NCBI GenBank assembly: GCA_036268055.1
Contig: DATAUW010000013.1
Span: 124,001-188,000 of the forward strand
DNA length: 64,000 bases
DNA from: Verrucomicrobiia bacterium
GTDB taxonomy: Bacteria > Verrucomicrobiota > Verrucomicrobiia > Limisphaerales > Pedosphaeraceae
Reading direction: 5' to 3'
Position 1 is the first letter of the stretch. Each line of letters starts with the position of its first letter. Position numbers and translations under genes: made by a program. A model generated the notes under the pieces. That model had not been told where the DNA came from and searched no databases. It saw only the letters and a list, made by a program, of their open reading frames with translations. Positions 21,488 through 49,013 of the stretch are shown here, piece after piece.

Positions 21488-22351
21488 TCATTGTCCAACG
21501 AGACAGGTGGAGCGTTGGGTGAACCAAATATAATCTGGATTACCCAAGCCTGCGTCCACGTTGTGTTCGATCACGCCGCTCACGACCGGCACTTGCACTT
21601 CGGGCCGCACCCATTTGCGCAATTCGACATGGCTGTCCGCGAAAGAAAAACTTGACGACCCGCCGTGATACGAACCGGGCACGTCCGCCCATTGCGCCTT
21701 GTCCATGCTCACCCGCAAAAAACCGTCGTCAATGCTCCCGCCGTTCTCATCGCAAAACACCCAGGTCAATCCCGCGCCCGGACAGACCAGGTCGTTCATT
21801 TTATTATATACCGCGTAGCCCGGATTGTTATTCATGACAAAACTCGGCCCGAGCAATGAGAGCAGGTATTGTCCCATTTGGCTGTTCATCGAATACGAGC
21901 GCAAGCGCTGGCCGTTCGCGGAAGGGACGGTATCGCCGGGGCATTTGTAAACGCGGATTTGGTTGGCGAGGTAAGGGCCGAGCGGCGAGGTCGTATAATA
22001 AATGGCGTTGGTGTTCGCGTCCTGGCTCGTCCAGCCTTCCTCCGCCATGCCGCACCACGCGAAAGAATTCACGACCGTGGAGCCGCCGGGTAATTGTGCG
22101 AACTGCGGGTCGTCGGGCGCGTTGGGCAGCAGGACGTCATTGAAATCATTCGCATACATTTGCCAGCCGACCTGGAGTTGTTTCAGGTTGCTCACGCACT
22201 GGGCCGCCTGCGCGCGAAGCTTGGCTTGCGTCAGCGAGGGAAGCAGCAAACTGGCAACGATCGCGATGATGGCAATGACGACCAACAATTCGATCAAGGT
22301 AAAACCCGATCGAACTGGCGACGCTCGCCGAAGATTACGCTGGCTCGTCAT
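21488..22351 (-). CDS. Pseudopilin with H-X9-D(G/S) C-terminal motif
   Basis: 287 residues. The leader [16 protein letters not shown] precedes [22 protein letters not shown], a classical prepilin cleavage and methylation site. The rest resembles the abundant PVC family with paired cysteines around CPGD and a C-terminal H-x9-DS ([17 protein letters not shown]), a one-residue variant of H-X9-DG. Presumed part of a type II secretion-like pseudopilus or surface structure; the actual role of this large family is not known. It is divergent from the sensor kinase gene, with 224 bases between the two starts. Confidence 0.9.
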
Positions 22352-22575
22352 CTGCTAAATTTTATGTGATCAATGGATCGGCAAAATGAATTCTCGCGAC
22401 GCAAAAATCTTTCGCGCGCGGCCGATCCTTGTGCAAAATTTGACGCAAGTGAATCCATGAAACTTTCACCCGTGAATAGTTCACTGCGGCGCGGGGTTTG
22501 TGAACTGTGCGTTTGCGGGCACACCTGTGCTTTTGATTGCACACGAACGCGACTCATTGGATACTCCGGCAGCGC
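22352..22575. promoter_or_regulatory. Divergent control region with inverted repeats
   Basis: Between the pseudopilin (minus) and the sensor kinase (plus). Two palindromic elements are seen: GGATCGGC at 22375-22382 with GCCGATCC at 22421-22428, and GTGAA-TAG-TTCAC at 22472-22484 with a further TGTGAAC nearby at 22499. They could be operators or transcript hairpins. No convincing -35/-10 pair was settled on. Confidence 0.4.
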
Positions 22576-25500
22576 ATGAAATACCCACGCTGGCTTCTAT
22601 ATGGTGCGTTTCTTGCCCTGGCTTCCACGTGTTTGGGCCAGCGTGGTTCCGACTGGCGCGCCTTCAAAGCCGCCGATGGTTTGCCGGAGACATTCGCCTC
22701 GGCGGTGAGCGTCGGGCCCCACGGACATTTGTGGGTTCGCCATCCGAATGTCGAATGGATCGGCTGGCTGAGCGGTTACGACATCAAGGCCATCCCCTCG
22801 CCCGGCCCTGGCAACAGCCACATTTGCGAAAGCGCCAGCGGACAACTCTGGACCTTCACACCCGATGGCCTCGAACAATATGACAAAAATCAAACCGCGT
22901 GGATTCATTACACCATTCCCGGCATCAATGCGGAATTGCGCCGCAACAATCTCAGCAACGTCCGCCCGTTGCCCCTTGCCGGGTTCAAACTAAACCATGT
23001 GCTGATTCTGTTTCCCGACAAGTTGATGGATTGCAATGTCGAGGACGCCGCGCATCCGCAACTCTCCGTCATCCGCGCCACGAGCGACACCGGTTTGCAG
23101 AAATTTTTCAACCTGACGCCCGCCAACGACGGTGGTTTATGGATCGTGGGCGCGCGTGGCCTCGCAAAAATCTCCGCGCCCATTCGCAATCTTAAATCCG
23201 GCACCGAATGGGAAGAACATCTGTTGCCCGGCCAACAACAATTTTTTAACGCGCGCGAGCCTATCGAAAGCGTTAATGGCGGCGTGACCGTTCTGGCCGA
23301 CTCTTCGCAAACCGGGCAACAAACCATCGCCTATTACGCAAACCACGAATGGGAGTTTGAAAAAGTCAGCGGTGAACGGCTCAGCCAGGCGTGGCGCGAG
23401 GGTAACATGTATTGGGCGATGTCGTTTAACTCACTCTTCCAAATTCGATCCGGCAAAAAACAGCCCGTGACCGACGAAGAAATATCCGCGCATCGCTTTT
23501 TCGATGTGGCCGTGCAAACGAATGGTGTCTTTTGGATCGCGACTTCGGACGGTTTATTTCGTCACGCGCCGTTGATATGGCAAACCCCTGCTGAGCCGCG
23601 ATCCAATATGGGCACGCCACCGCTGGCATTGACGGAAGATGCAGCCGGAAAATTGTGGGTTGCCTCGGCTGATTCATTACGCAGTTTGCTGGAAACTACG
23701 TGGACGAATTATCCCTTCCCCGCCGAATTTCGCGGTGGCACAGAGGTTCATGCGTTGTTCGCCGTGACTAATGGTGCTGTGCTTTTGCAAACTGAAGATC
23801 GCCTGTTTCAATTCAATCCACAAAACGCACAGTTCACCGAGCCGGTCTTACTTCGGACGTTCCATCTAAAAGCGCTCGGCTTTCTCAAAGACGGGGCTTT
23901 GTGTGTGCAAAAAAATTCTGATGCCGGAAACGCGTCCGCTGAGCTTGCGCTTTATGATGGCAGCAATCTCGCACCATTTCCTTTCCCGCAACCAAACTTG
24001 AATTCAACGAGCAATCTGCTTTTCCTCGCCGCTTCGCAAAATGGTGACTTATGGCTCGGCACGGAAAAAGGATTGAACTGGTTTCATGATAAAAAGTGGC
24101 AGTCATTTGCCGATGTGCCGTCCGTTTCTTCCGCGCCGTCGTGTTTCGCCGAGGTCGGCGACGGAAAAATCTGGTGCGGCGTGCAGGACAAGATCGTGCA
24201 GTTTGACGGTAAAACCTGGACCGCCATTCACGCTGGTTTTTATCATGTGAATTCGTTGGTCAAGGCCCGCGACGGCAGCATTTGGGTGGCGTCGGACAAC
24301 GGCGTGCATCGCTTTTTTCATGACGCGTGGCTGGCCAATGGTTCGGAAGAAGGTTTGCCGAGCGCGACGGTGCGGCAGATTTTTGAAGATCATACCGGGC
24401 GCGTTGCCGCCGCGACGGCGCTTGGTTTAAGTTTCTATCATCCCGACGCCGACCTCGATCCGCCGCATACTTACGTGGAGAATTTGCCGACGCCCAACAA
24501 CACATTGCCCGAAGGCTCCATCGTCACCATTTCGTTCGATGCCCAGGACAAGTGGAAACAAACCTCCGTGGATCGGCTCGTGTATTCGTTCCGGCTTGAT
24601 GGCCTCGAGTGGTCGCCGTATCAGGAACAGCGAAGCGCCTCGTTCCTCGATGTCGCGGCAGGCAAACACATCTTTCGCGTGCGCAGTATGGATCGTAATT
24701 GGAACGAGGACCCAAGGCCGGCTCAACTGGAATTCGCGATGACCGTGCCGTGGTATCGCGAGTCGCGATTAATTTTTATTTCCGGCACGGGCCTCGCGGT
24801 CGCGCTGTTTTTTGCCAGCCTCGCTCTCAATCGCCATCGCCAACTGCTCCGCAGTTATGCCGAGGTGGAAGCGAAGGTCGCCATTCGCACGAAGCAGCTT
24901 GACCTCGCCAATCAGGAATTATTTCACAGCCAAAAAATGAATGCGCTGGGCACGCTCGCCGCGGGCATCGCGCATGACTTCAATAATATTCTCTCGATCA
25001 TCAAAGGCTCGGCGCAAATCATCGAGGACAATCTCGACAACGAAGACAAAATCCGCACGCGCACCGACCGCATTAAAACGGTCGTCGAGCAAGGCGCGGG
25101 CATTGTCCAGGCGATGCTTGGTTTCAGCCGCAATTCAGATCGCCAACTCGCGCCCTGCAATGTAAATCACATCGTGCGCGATACTATCACGCTGCTTGGC
25201 GACCGTTTTCTGCGTGAGGTCGAAGTCAAATTTGAGCCAGCCGAACCGGCGCCGCCGGAAGTCCCCGCGTCACGGGAATTTTTGCAGCAAATTTTGCTCA
25301 ACTTCATTTTCAACGCGGCGGAGGCAAGCACGGGACATCGCCAGGTGATCTTGAGCACAGCGCACTCGAATCGGCTGCCAATCTCGATGGCGCTCAAACC
25401 GGCGGCGGCGAACAATTATGTTTTTATTTCCGTAAAAGATTTTGGCAGCGGCATCGCGCCGGAAGTCATGCCGCGCATTTTTGAGCCTTTTTTCACCACG

Positions 25501-25698
25501 AAATCGCTCTCCGTGCGGCGCGGAACCGGACTGGGGCTCTCAATGGTGTATGAACTCGCGCGGCGAATGGATTGCGGGCTGGCGGTGGAATCCGTGGTCG
25601 GCCAAGGGAGTAAGTTCACCCTTATCCTTCCCGAACGCGCGGTCACGGAAGTGAGTCCGCCGCCCACCGATGGCAAAGAATCTTCCGCGACAGTTTGA
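22576..25698 (+). CDS. Sensor histidine kinase with N-terminal beta-propeller sensor
   Basis: 1040 residues from the ATG at 22576, which starts a signal peptide (MKYPRWLLYGAFLALASTCLG). An extracytoplasmic sensor of about 660 residues contains repeated two-component-regulator propeller blades (GHLWVRHPNV, GLWIVGARGL, GKLWVASADSL, GSIWVASDNGVHRF) and a Y_Y_Y-like domain (SFRLDGLEWSPYQ). One membrane helix at about 733-755 follows. The cytoplasmic kinase has a HisKA box with His800 (GIAHDFNNIL), an N-box (LNFIFNAAEAS) and G boxes (DFGSGIAPEV, GTGLGLS). Unlike Bacteroidetes hybrid systems no receiver is fused; the partner is the next gene, 32 bases downstream. Confidence 0.93.
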   Translation: MKYPRWLLYGAFLALASTCLGQRGSDWRAFKAADGLPETFASAVSVGPHGHLWVRHPNVEWIGWLSGYDIKAIPSPGPGNSHICESASGQLWTFTPDGLEQYDKNQTAWIHYTIPGINAELRRNNLSNVRPLPLAGFKLNHVLILFPDKLMDCNVEDAAHPQLSVIRATSDTGLQKFFNLTPANDGGLWIVGARGLAKISAPIRNLKSGTEWEEHLLPGQQQFFNAREPIESVNGGVTVLADSSQTGQQTIAYYANHEWEFEKVSGERLSQAWREGNMYWAMSFNSLFQIRSGKKQPVTDEEISAHRFFDVAVQTNGVFWIATSDGLFRHAPLIWQTPAEPRSNMGTPPLALTEDAAGKLWVASADSLRSLLETTWTNYPFPAEFRGGTEVHALFAVTNGAVLLQTEDRLFQFNPQNAQFTEPVLLRTFHLKALGFLKDGALCVQKNSDAGNASAELALYDGSNLAPFPFPQPNLNSTSNLLFLAASQNGDLWLGTEKGLNWFHDKKWQSFADVPSVSSAPSCFAEVGDGKIWCGVQDKIVQFDGKTWTAIHAGFYHVNSLVKARDGSIWVASDNGVHRFFHDAWLANGSEEGLPSATVRQIFEDHTGRVAAATALGLSFYHPDADLDPPHTYVENLPTPNNTLPEGSIVTISFDAQDKWKQTSVDRLVYSFRLDGLEWSPYQEQRSASFLDVAAGKHIFRVRSMDRNWNEDPRPAQLEFAMTVPWYRESRLIFISGTGLAVALFFASLALNRHRQLLRSYAEVEAKVAIRTKQLDLANQELFHSQKMNALGTLAAGIAHDFNNILSIIKGSAQIIEDNLDNEDKIRTRTDRIKTVVEQGAGIVQAMLGFSRNSDRQLAPCNVNHIVRDTITLLGDRFLREVEVKFEPAEPAPPEVPASREFLQQILLNFIFNAAEASTGHRQVILSTAHSNRLPISMALKPAAANNYVFISVKDFGSGIAPEVMPRIFEPFFTTKSLSVRRGTGLGLSMVYELARRMDCGLAVESVVGQGSKFTLILPERAVTEVSPPPTDGKESSATV

Positions 25699-25730: not shown

Positions 25731-26381
25731 ATGGCAGCGCCTAAAATCCTGGTCGTCGAAGACGATGATTTGCAATACGAGATTTACGAGGAAACCCTCG
25801 CCAAATATCAGTTGGTGCGCGTTCTCACCGGCAGTCACGCGCTCGCGACCATCGCCAAAGACCCGCCGCAACTTTTGATTCTCGACCATGTGCTGGCCGA
25901 TGGCGAACTGGGACTAAACTTTCTCCCGCAGTTCAAGGACTTGCTGCCCTTCGTGCCGATCATCGTCGTTTCTGGTGCGCTGGAAGTGCATCAGCAAATT
26001 CACGCGTTGCAGGGACCGCGCCGCGCGCATTACTGCCTGCCGAAACCGGTGGACGTGCATGAGTTGAAAAAAACCGTGGCCATCGCGCTCAAGGAATGCG
26101 GCGAAGCGGAAGTCGTGCGGCAATTCGAAGCGCTGGAACGTGCCAAGCGCGTGGATGCCCTCGAACTATTCAGCCGTTCGACCGATCGGTTGAGCCGGCA
26201 GAATCGTTTGCGTGAATCCATCGGCAAGTCCACCGGGCGGCCGAACATTTCGGCGTACGCGCGCGAGTTCGGCGTGGCGCGGCGGACGATCATCCGGGAT
26301 TTGCAGGAGTTGATTCGCCGCGGGCAACTGAAGCCGGAAATTTATCCCGAATGGGAAAACCCCGAGCCGGACGAAGATTGA
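25731..26381 (+). CDS. Response regulator with C-terminal helix-turn-helix
   Basis: 216 residues. The receiver domain (about 4-125) has the acidic pocket EDDD (10-13), phospho-acceptor Asp52 in LLILDHV, and Lys105 in LPKPVD. A helical linker leads to a short output region (about 165-205, ISAYAREFGVARRTIIRDLQELIRRGQL) that resembles a DeoR-type HTH rather than the usual OmpR, NarL or NtrC outputs. It follows the propeller kinase closely and is presumably its partner. The regulon is unknown; the glycan and secreted-protein genes nearby are possible targets. Confidence 0.88.
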   Translation: MAAPKILVVEDDDLQYEIYEETLAKYQLVRVLTGSHALATIAKDPPQLLILDHVLADGELGLNFLPQFKDLLPFVPIIVVSGALEVHQQIHALQGPRRAHYCLPKPVDVHELKKTVAIALKECGEAEVVRQFEALERAKRVDALELFSRSTDRLSRQNRLRESIGKSTGRPNISAYAREFGVARRTIIRDLQELIRRGQLKPEIYPEWENPEPDED

Positions 26382-26389
26382 GCCGCCCT

Positions 26390-26419
26390 TAAAAAAGAAG
26401 GCTTCGGTGCACCGAAGCC
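26390..26419 (-). terminator. Intrinsic terminator of the minus-strand RNA
   Basis: A perfect 8-bp stem GGCTTCGG-TGCA-CCGAAGCC (26400-26419). On the minus strand it is followed by TTCTTTTTT; on the plus strand no T run follows. It therefore ends minus-strand transcription and is not the terminator of the response regulator. Confidence 0.88.
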
Positions 26420-26760
26420 GGGTCAACACGCATCAACCCGCTTCGATGGACACCGAAGCACCTTCCATCCTCACTAACCAGTGGACTTCAACACGGACAC
26501 TAACTGCACTCACTCTCAGGACTAACTAGCGCTAACAACACTACTAACACTGATCACTGACTGACTCTAACTCCACACTGGCTTTCTGCTACTTACTACT
26601 ACTGCTGCTACTAACTGCGACAACTTTCCCCTTAACTTCTCCCATTCTGTACTGCACCGACGCATGAGACACTAACGACCTACCGATCCTCCCGTTGAAC
26701 AACGGACAACGGGAAATTGATACCATCTGGGCGCCCCCCAAACTATCGCGCCCAGATGGC
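26390..26760 (-). ncRNA. Candidate structured RNA, GTTAG-rich, ending in an intrinsic terminator
   Basis: On the minus strand, directly after the stop of the 83-residue ORF: a 12-bp hairpin (26748-26759 with 26723-26734), a 7-bp hairpin CCCGTTG/CAACGGG (26691-26713), about 230 bases with nine GTTA repeats mostly as GTTAGT, a run of ARN triplets (26586-26612, AGT/AGC/AAG), a hairpin GCTTCG/CGAAGC (26440-26459) and a terminator. The plus strand here is nearly free of G runs and has no convincing coding frame. It may be a long 3' UTR of the small gene or a separate sRNA. No known RNA family was recognised. Confidence 0.6.
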
Positions 26761-27012
26761 TCAGCCCCACCCCCTAAAATCGCGATCCGAACGGCTTGCG
26801 CCGCCTTTCACGAACTTCGCACCTGACGGCGGCGTGTGAAGCCACGAAGGCATCCGCCGGTTCGCCAGGCAAATTCCCACCCCCAGCAATCTCGCCTGAT
26901 AGTCTCCCAGGTAACTGTAGGTGGTTGAAAACCCACCCACCCATTTAGCCGGAAGTTGCGCATCCGTTTTCACTCTGACAACCGGATTAAATATGTATAA
27001 TTTCCGCGCCAT
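26761..27012 (-). CDS. Small ORF of unknown function behind a sigma-54-type promoter
   Basis: 83 codons. The ATG at 27012 is preceded by AGGAAAA at a good Shine-Dalgarno distance, and by a sigma-54-type promoter at 27046-27061. The product has no signal peptide or membrane helix, is basic, and has aromatic clusters (KWVGGFSTTYSYLGDYQ, RRMPSWLHTPPSG). No family is recognised. Coding status is uncertain: it could be a true small protein or a chance frame at the 5' end of a regulatory RNA. The stop codon directly abuts the first RNA hairpin. Confidence 0.5.
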   Translation of the reverse strand: MARKLYIFNPVVRVKTDAQLPAKWVGGFSTTYSYLGDYQARLLGVGICLANRRMPSWLHTPPSGAKFVKGGASRSDRDFRGWG

Positions 27013-27045
27013 AAATGTTTTCCTGCGAGACGTTGCCAGTTAAAT

Positions 27046-27061
27046 AGCACTCTCAATGCCA
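27046..27061 (-). promoter_or_regulatory. Sigma-54-type -24/-12 promoter of the small gene and RNA
   Basis: Minus strand reads TGGCATTGAGAGTGCT, followed by ATTT. GG and GC are ten bases apart. Expected start near 27035, 23 bases before the ATG. The match to the glnB and pilin sites (TGGCAT, TGCT) is exact at ten positions. Confidence 0.65.
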
Positions 27062-27263
27062 ACCCAAAATCGCTGTAAACAAAGGGTTTTCTTCACGCAT
27101 CCAAAGGGCGCGCTGGAACATTCGCACGCAAAGCGCGTGAAGTTCACACACTCGCGGGAAATTCCTCACTCAAATATCAAAATGGACGCCGTCCGGTTTT
27201 GTTTTGGCAAGTCCAGTGTCTGCTGCTATGCTCCATCACAGTCGGCTTTGCCCATAAAACCCT

Positions 27264-34548: not shown

Positions 34549-34873
34549 ACCCAAAGTCCCACACGGATAGTAAATCGTCGTGAAAGGCCATGCCGCCCAA
34601 AGCCCCGCCAGGACAACTAATATCCTGGCGTATGGTAGGGCTGCGCTGCCGCGCAGCCGTCCGAAGTCCCGCAGGGACGGCAGATCTTAGCCCAGCAATT
34701 TATTGCTGGGTTTGTATTCGTTCCAAAACAAGTCCCGCAGGGACGAAAGAAATTCTCGCGCGGAACTAACCTTTAAACACTCGTCCAATCGCTTCTTATT
34801 AACCCCGGCTGCCGCAAGAATTACATCCCACTCAAATCCGCTATTCCAAGCGCAGCGAGGCAAGCCTGTACGT
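34549..34873 (+). repeat. Composite hairpin repeat, copy A
   Basis: After an eroded first module (34549-34600) come, in order: aactaatatcctggcg, the GCAGCC hairpin ggctgcgctgccgcgcagcc, gtcccgcagggac, the hairpin CCCAGCAA-ttta-TTGCTGGG (34691-34710), a second gtcccgcagggac with gaaagaa, cgcttcttattaacccc with a degraded third hairpin, and the tail agcgcagcgaggc. Open frames across this stretch are spurious. The interval 34364-34548 and 34874-34951 show nothing else. Confidence 0.88.
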
Positions 34874-37976: not shown

Positions 37977-38250
37977 TCCAAGTTCCGCAGGGAACAATAG
38001 ATCGTCGTGGTAGGGCTGCGCTGCCGCGCAGCCGTCCCAAGTCCCGCAGGGACGGCAGAACTTAGCCCAGCAATTTATTGCTGGGTTGAATTCCTTTTCA
38101 AATCCAAGTCCGCAAGGGACGAAAGAAATTCCCAGATGGAACCACCTCCCACACTCATCCATCGCTTCTCATTTAACTCCCGGCTTCAGCCGGGGAAATG
38201 CAACTCCTCAAAAAATCTGTTCCGAACAAAGCGAGGCAGGCCCGTTCCTT
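37977..38250 (+). repeat. Composite hairpin repeat, copy B (fullest)
   Basis: Modules in order: agttccgcagggaac with aatagatcgtcgtgg, the GCAGCC hairpin ggctgcgctgccgcgcagcc, gtcccgcagggac, CCCAGCAA-ttta-TTGCTGGG (38065-38084), gtccgcaagggac with gaaagaaatt, cgcttctcatttaa, CCCGGCT-tc-AGCCGGG, and a tail ending agcgaggcaggcc. Same orientation as the other copies. Confidence 0.9.
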
Positions 38251-43168: not shown

Positions 43169-43573
43169 GCGTGGCAGCGCGGAGTTGCCGCTGCTCCGTC
43201 AAAGTCCCGCAGGGACGACAGATCTTAGCCCAGCCATTTATGGCTGGGTTGGATTCCCCTTCAATCCAAGTCCCAGGGACGAAAGAGATCAGCGATTTAC
43301 CAACACCCATCCTCGTCACATGCAATCGCGACCTAACGCACTCCGCCCCTCCCCACGACAAGAGAGGCTGGGAGAGGGGCGCGCTATCCAAATAATCATT
43401 GCGTCCCAATAACAATGTCGAAGTCCCACAGAGACGACCGATCTTAGCCCAGCCATTTTCCCCAGCAATCAAACCTGCAAAGACTTCTCATTAACCCCCA
43501 ACTTCAGTTGGGGGAATCCTCGTCGAAACAACTCACCTCTATATCGAGCGAAGCGAGGCGAGCCCAGGCGAGC
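43169..43573 (+). repeat. Composite hairpin repeat, copy C (interrupted, with compensatory changes)
   Basis: Modules: a diverged GCAGC hairpin, gtcccgcagggac, CCCAGCCA-ttta-TGGCTGGG (43229-43248), gtcccagggac with gaaagaga, then an interruption with GCCCCTC/GAGGGGC arms (43345-43380), a second degenerate gatcttagcccagcca unit, cttctcattaa, CCCCCAACT-tc-AGTTGGGGG, and a GAGCGAAGCGAGGC tail. The two hairpin stems carry paired substitutions against the other copies. 43574-43779 shows nothing else. Confidence 0.88.
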
Positions 43574-43779
43574 ATCCTTGAGAAGGGCCGTTTTATTCCA
43601 AATGTTTAAAAATTCTCTATCACCCACACTCCTCATTAACCTCTTACACCGCCGCCCATTCCAAAAAAATATTTCTCCTCAAAAAAATTATTTTCTCTTG
43701 CGTTGCCCTTCGTCGCGTCATACGGTCACCCCAGTTCTTTGAACGGCGGCTCATCCGCCATCAAATCACCATCACATTT

Positions 43780-43915
43780 GAATGTCTGGGAACCCGGTGA
43801 GAATCCGGGACGGTCGCGCCACTGTAAAAGGCTACGGACTCCCAATGCCACTGACACACGTCGGGAAGGCGGGAGCGAGGTTTGAAGCCCCAAGTCAGGA
43901 TACCGGTTCATCTGT
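43780..43915 (+). promoter_or_regulatory. Cobalamin riboswitch
   Basis: Matches the adenosylcobalamin aptamer: GGGAACCCGGTGAGAATCC, then CGCGCCACTGTAA, a GGGAAGGC stretch at 43863 and the 3' B12 box AAGTCAGGATACCGG at 43891-43905. Downstream, before the gene, are two hairpins: CCCGGCGAA/TTCGCCGGG (43972-43994) and GCCGGAG/CTCCGGC (44024-44054, with seven T in the loop), which may form the expression platform. It lies about 210 bases before the secreted-protein gene at 44125 and is in the same orientation. B12 is expected to repress that gene and those behind it. Confidence 0.95.
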
Positions 43916-44124
43916 GCTCGTCAGCCCCGCCTGTGCGGGACACTTCTCCGCAAAGAGAAGGATGAGGCCAGCCCGGCGAACTGTCTTCGCCGGGGTTCGT
44001 TGAATGCCTTCATTCCCCGTTTTGCCGGAGTCTGGAGGTTTTTTTATCTCCGGCTTCGCGCTGGTCTCTCAACCAAAACCGTTCGCGCAAAATATTTTTT
44101 TCGCGCGCATTGAAAGACCAGTTC

Positions 44125-48745: not shown

Positions 48746-49013
48746 CGGTAGTCCCGTACGGACAACTAATATCCTAACGCATGGTAGGGCTGTGCTGCCG
48801 CGCAGCCGTCCGAAGTCCCGCAGGGATGACCGATCTTAGCCCAGCAATTTATTGCTGGGTTTACCTTCATTCCAAACCAAGTCCCGCAGGGACGAAAGAA
48901 TTTCCCCCTTGAAACCAAACCTCACCCACTCGCCCAACGCTTCTCATTAACCCCAACTTCAGTCGGGGGAAAAACTAGGCGCACACGCGCAAGAAACGGT
49001 TTCAACCGTTTCT
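48746..49013 (+). repeat. Composite hairpin repeat, copy D, with a trailing inverted repeat
   Basis: Modules: gtcccgtacggac with aactaatatcctaacg, the GCAGCC hairpin variant ggctgtgctgccgcgcagcc, gtcccgcagggat, CCAGCAA-ttta-TTGCTGG (48841-48858), gtcccgcagggac with gaaagaa, cgcttctcattaacccc and a hairpin of CCCCAACT with AGTCGGGG. It is followed by a separate perfect inverted repeat AGAAACGG-N6-CCGTTTCT (48992-49013), which lacks a T run and is not a clear terminator. Confidence 0.88.

Follow-up and report, generated by a model that had tools for sequence, protein, structure and literature searches.

The described systems closest to the locus analyzed here include, on the RNA side, mRNA-derived 3'-UTR sRNAs and dual-function sRNAs, of which SgrS is an example. 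The locus resembles these in that a small ORF is followed by hairpins and an intrinsic terminator, but differs from them in that its 3' part is not conserved, its repeat array is unstructured and no Hfq was found in the genome. On the promoter side, the closest systems are sigma-54 promoters with bEBP sites, such as those of glnA and pilin genes. The likeness lies in the GG-N10-GC core, the dyad located about 70 bp upstream, and the presence of RpoN and AAA+ activators in the genome, whereas for the dyad sequence and the target protein no description was found in the literature. A genome survey has identified sigma-54 as a controller of the bacterial exterior (PMC3162934), in agreement with the link to surface structures detected here; a literature search on sigma-54 in Pedosphaera or Verrucomicrobia yielded nothing relevant. 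Prepilin-like proteins, with an N-terminal methylation motif and a weak similarity to DUF1559 (SBP_bac_10), are connected to the locus in that, in seven genomes, their genes carry a dyad that resembles the one described here and is equally spaced from the promoter, whereas the small protein itself is hydrophilic, lacks a prepilin leader and has no sequence relation to them.

The window, that is, the whole 64,000-nucleotide stretch of DNA that was analyzed, belongs to contig 13 of a 5.1 Mb genome that is 96% complete. This genome (G000) was compared with the other members of a family set of 8 genomes (G000-G007, the Pedosphaera group) and with an order set of 320 genomes in all. The features of the locus and its neighborhood are the following:

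27125..27139, minus: enhancer-type dyad CACGCGCTTTGCGTG inside GTGTGAACTTCACGCGCTTTGCGTGCGAA, candidate sigma-54 activator site (conserved in 7/7 loci)
27046..27062, minus: predicted sigma-54 (RpoN) -24/-12 promoter TTGGCATTGAGAGTGCT, GG-N10-GC (conserved in 7/7 loci)
26761..27012, minus: predicted 83-codon gene for a basic protein, MARKLYIFNP...GGASRSDRDFRGWG, pI 10.5 (orthologues and purifying selection)
26723..26759, minus: hairpin right after the stop, candidate ancestral intrinsic terminator, U-tract missing here (stem kept, compensatory changes)
26691..26715, minus: second hairpin TTCCCGTTG...CAACGGGAGG, window genome only (MFE fold)
26474..26690, minus: C-poor, GTTAG/AGT-rich spacer of about 215 nt with 8 GTTAG, window genome only (enriched over shuffles)
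26391..26419, minus: predicted intrinsic terminator GGCTTCGGTGCACCGAAGCC TTCTTTTTT, end of the lengthened transcript (terminator scan and fold)
25731..26381, plus: response-regulator gene, receiver domain PF00072, convergent to the small gene (Pfam; synteny in G000, G002, G003, G004, G007)
22537..25698, plus: sensor histidine kinase, two-component propeller (Reg_prop), upstream of the response regulator (Pfam; synteny in G000, G003, G004, G007)
21488..22351, minus: prepilin-like gene divergent from the kinase, conserved neighborhood (synteny and similarity)

The elements listed in the earlier, sequence-only reading of this DNA are all present: the -24/-12 element, the Shine-Dalgarno site and the 83-codon ORF on the minus strand at these coordinates, the two hairpins that follow the stop codon, the GTTA array (9 GTTA counted), the ARN triplets and the perfect terminator with its T run. 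The interpretation that we consider quite likely is that the locus harbors a lineage-specific protein gene of an RpoN regulon that also includes prepilin-like genes, and that its transcript has been lengthened in the window genome.

Evolutionary evidence for a small basic protein

Searches with the protein as the query identified orthologues in 7/8 family genomes, the window genome included; those in the six further genomes consist of 84-86 residues and are 49-66% identical to the query. No copy was detectable in the remaining family genome (G005), and no orthologue was found in the other ~310 genomes among the 320 of the order. When 388 phylum genomes were searched with a profile, the small protein was recovered only in the window's own genome, and a search with the whole region retrieved the locus in same-family relatives only, the matches spanning the ORF and the first hairpin and not the array. 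All seven proteins have lengths of 83-86 residues and pI values of 10.5-11.8; their ends are nearly invariant (N-terminal MARKLY.F, C-terminal GASR.DR..R.WG) and the middle is variable. For the pairs of these seven orthologues, dN is 0.09-0.50 and dS ranges from 0.65 to saturated; alignment gaps comprise whole codons, the start and the stop are identical in all orthologues, and third-position changes occur throughout. Because dN is well below dS and the gaps comprise whole codons, this is a protein gene under purifying selection. Comparative analysis thus substantiates the small protein proposed in the initial reading and predicts that the 83-codon ORF is a real protein gene confined to one bacterial family, the Pedosphaera group. 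The Shine-Dalgarno sequence (AGGA) of the gene is weak and is not kept in relatives.

The same alignment bears on the converse proposition, namely that the ORF is untranslated and that what is conserved is a structured sRNA expressed from the sigma-54 promoter. A conserved promoter and terminator do flank a short transcript, and the codons at the two ends are unusually constant (AAA-YTN-TAC-ATA; TTT-AGG-GGG-TGG-GG), but dS far exceeds dN in all pairs, with changes at third positions all along the gene, and gaps occur only in multiples of three between a shared start and stop, so that we regard this possibility as very improbable.

No significant relative of the 83-residue protein was found in Pfam, NCBIfam, PHROG or PDB (best PHROG E-value of 0.04, in one of the seven family members; best match of the PDB profile search insignificant, with an E-value of 0.75), and there was no relative in the phage and plasmid collections. 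Fold prediction from six sequences gave no confident fold (pLDDT 52). The small size and the conserved ends framing a variable middle are compatible with a precursor of a modified secreted peptide. However, none of the conserved neighbors, as judged by gene position and similarity only, resembles a peptide-modifying enzyme, the most conserved residues lie at both ends as opposed to a leader followed by a variable core, and there is no match to a precursor family; hence there is very little likelihood that the protein is such a precursor.

A separate peculiarity of the gene is that, despite the high overall dS, synonymous sites are unusually constant in codons 4-7 (AAA, TAC, ATA) and in the last five codons (TTT AGG GGG TGG GGN). 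This constancy perhaps serves initiation at the 5' end and a G-rich element ahead of the terminator at the 3' end.

A conserved sigma-54 promoter with an enhancer-type dyad

By itself, a -24/-12 match is weak evidence, such matches occurring at about twice the chance rate in the window genome (15 matches genome-wide, versus 7 for the reversed control and 8 for the control with off-by-one spacing, N5); the promoter of the small gene is convincing because it is conserved in seven genomes. The -24/-12 element is kept at all seven orthologous loci, the variant in G002 having GGTA for GGCA. The center of the upstream dyad, CACGCnnnnTGCGYG, is located exactly 72 bp upstream from the GG of the -24 element, again at 7/7 loci, and the mean column conservation is 0.80 for the dyad and 0.80-0.83 for both blocks versus 0.54 for the spacer and the upstream sequence. 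Other -24/-12 matches in the window genome are found upstream of genes for glutamine synthetase, a secretin-domain protein, a prepilin and PEP-CTERM proteins, which are typical sigma-54 and surface genes (cf. PMC3162934).

The window genome encodes RpoN (PF04552, E-value 3.7e-60) and nine genes with a strong sigma-54 activator domain (PF00158). The promoter and the dyad are arranged as in RpoN promoters that have an enhancer, and an activator putatively binds the dyad. The enhancer-dependent (sigma-54) control suggested at the outset is thus supported by the promoter and the dyad at all seven loci and by the presence of RpoN and activators in the genome. A search for dyad-like sites beside the activator genes of the window genome produced none that was convincing, and none of the nine was singled out as the activator.

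A similar enhancer-type site at prepilin-like genes

We searched the eight family genomes with a loosened pattern combining the dyad and the -24/-12 element, with 31 spacings allowed. The pattern was loosened after the prepilin site of G000 had been seen, so that only the other genomes provide independent tests; it yielded 40 matches, versus 4 for the reversed control. The total length is 93-94 bp in 18 of the 40 matches, with ~2.6 expected under free spacing, although orthologous matches are not mutually independent. Six of these 18 matches correspond to the small gene, and when it is left out, 12 of 34 matches have a length of 93-94 bp. Seven of these 12 precede prepilin-like genes, one each in G000, G001, G002, G003, G004, G006 and G007, a raw count that has to be read against the large number of prepilin-like genes in the family genomes. 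The leader GAFTLIELL is visible in the flank of six of these matches, the seventh, in G006, likewise precedes a prepilin-like gene with such a leader, and the two proteins that were scanned matched Pfam N_methyl and, weakly, DUF1559. The distance between the dyad and the promoter of the prepilin gene is the same as in the small gene or one base longer in all seven small-gene genomes. An additional match in G003 precedes a prepilin-related protein without the leader, and two further prepilin genes have a dyad that is closer by about one helical turn (81 and 83 bp).

A conserved membrane-protein-like ORF, YWVKKLLxCNPFYLVSAAxLLYGFYLV, is preceded by a similar dyad with equal spacing in two genomes that belong to one genus (L087 and L072; G007:C87 and G004:C37) and is a possible further member of the regulon. 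The remaining two of the 12 matches lie at a contig end in G006 and at a site that seems to be a chance match.

In extended form, the dyads read GTGAGATTCACGCAnTATGCGYG at the small-gene sites and TTCACGCGnAATGCGTGAAAATTTCAC at the prepilin sites, with the half-sites TCACGC/GCGTGA common to both. The simplest reading of this similarity is that a single activator would serve the dyads of both genes, and the small protein is probably a member of a surface/pilus regulon under enhancer control. Under the mechanism that we propose, an NtrC-type activator would bind the dyad and loop to the RpoN polymerase and, on its signal, would fire transcription of a short mRNA of ~0.3 kb that encodes the basic protein; the same activator would turn on a prepilin-like (N-methyl, DUF1559-like) gene in every genome with the small gene. 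Judging from the co-regulation and the gene neighborhood, our guess is that the basic protein is probably a small accessory or regulatory factor of the surface/pilus program. The sigma-54 world gains a small-protein family that is limited to one bacterial family and has no database match, and the shared type of enhancer ties this orphan protein to prepilin-like genes. Such a connection offers an initial way into a Pedosphaera-group regulon and a testable place for the protein, in terms of activator, signal and surface phenotype.

Elsewhere in the window, a sigma-54-like site, MKVSQSTKRGFTLIEIMIVVAIIGLLAAIAIPNF, is present at 13742-13758 (minus strand), 118 bp upstream of a prepilin gene.

The 3' end of the transcript

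The first hairpin forms a perfect 12-bp stem (26759-26748 with 26734-26723) that begins one base past the stop codon. Six of the 7 genomes retain the stem, and at 4 of its 12 pairs both partners have changed; some of these changes come from G001, where the stem is mostly broken. The T-tract behind it is clear in G003 and G006, weaker in G004 and G007, and missing in the window genome, G001 and G002. On this comparative basis, the first hairpin is predicted to be an ancestral, conserved intrinsic terminator, and the mRNA of the relatives appears to end at it, right after the stop. The second hairpin has no counterpart in the alignment of relatives. At the distal end of the region in the window genome, the last terminator comprises a stem at 26419-26400 followed by TTCTTTTTT. 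As the old terminator lacks a U-tract in this genome, transcripts probably read through the repeat-rich spacer to the new one. The 3' region as a whole folds better than shuffles (z -5.7), and this excess is due to the hairpins since the GTTAG array alone shows no structure beyond shuffles (z -0.7).

The array comprises 8 GTTAG and 9 GTTA in 261 nt, versus 1.6 and 2.3, respectively, in dinucleotide shuffles, with 0 of 2000 shuffles reaching as high, and the ARN run AGTAGCAGCAGTAGTAGTAAG is present on the minus strand. In all relatives that carry the gene, the array is lacking at the corresponding place. Clusters of three close GTTAG occur only sporadically elsewhere in the 8 genomes.

The sequence-only reading had derived from these features a dual-function transcript or an sRNA released from the 3' UTR, and had set conservation in close relatives beforehand as a test. 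The outcome of this comparison is divided, the first hairpin being kept and the array being absent, and the RNA proposal as such was not supported. It would posit that the transcript, besides encoding the small protein, has a function confined to this species in its GTTAG-rich 3' portion, which, on its own or after release by cleavage, would serve as a protein sponge or regulatory RNA. The density of GTTAG far above that of shuffles, the C-poor and weakly structured nature of the array, its strand asymmetry and the intact terminator at the end of the transcript would all fit such a function; against it stand the absence of the array from relatives with the gene, its fold that is no better than that of shuffles, the lack of a second array of such density in the window genome and the assignment of the first hairpin as a terminator. 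Furthermore, a search of the region against Rfam at a lax threshold matched no family, and Hfq (PF17209) had no match in the window genome, whereas 5 of the control genomes did match; insofar as an assembly of 96% completeness allows this conclusion, the lack of Hfq removes the basis for the argument from the ARN triplets. Taken together, these observations make a dual function of the transcript unlikely, and we find no evidence of a regulatory-RNA function of the 3' tail. There is a small chance that the tail is a newly born regulatory element whose RNA, unstructured and rich in GUUAG, is made when the enhancer-controlled promoter fires and either titrates a protein that binds RNA or pairs with CUAAC-containing targets; if true, this tail would link control at the RNA level to the pilus regulon in a bacterium for which the Hfq search gave no match.

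We regard the array as most plausibly a young spacer specific to this lineage. A neutral origin, by slippage growth between two convergent genes, is likely; it concerns the 3' tail only and forms part of our preferred explanation of a sigma-54-controlled protein gene with a lengthened transcript, with which it is not exclusive. The GTTAG copies are irregularly spaced (26, 22, 10, 12, 23, 44, 61), tandem-repeat analysis detected one weak repeat with a unit of 9-10 nt and no regular unit, and the array is intergenic and restricted to one genome, all of which is consistent with neutral growth, but the new strong terminator is a sign that selection may still act on the end of the transcript.

Gene neighborhood and other RNA elements

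The response-regulator gene is found near the small gene in 5 of the 6 genomes checked, either directly adjacent or one reading frame off, and its product is 73-80% identical between genomes. The kinase and a further prepilin-like gene accompany it in four genomes (G000, G003, G004, G007). According to the Pfam search, the response regulator has no AAA+ domain and is therefore not itself the sigma-54 activator. The upstream region of the neighboring prepilin gene (21488..22351) contains neither a matching sigma-54 site nor the dyad.

Between the divergent prepilin and histidine-kinase genes, a conserved element of ~41 nt (GTGCAATCAAAAGCA..GGTGTGCC..AAACACACAGTTC, window 22502-22542) is present in four genomes. 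It has no match in Rfam and may represent either a leader element or an operator for the adjacent response regulator.

Known RNA families are also represented in the window. Acido-Lenti-1 RNA (RF01687) is present in four copies within 14 kb, all on the minus strand (34665-34710, 38040-38085, 43203-43248 and 48814-48859), and a cobalamin riboswitch (RF00174) is located on the plus strand at 43763-43925.
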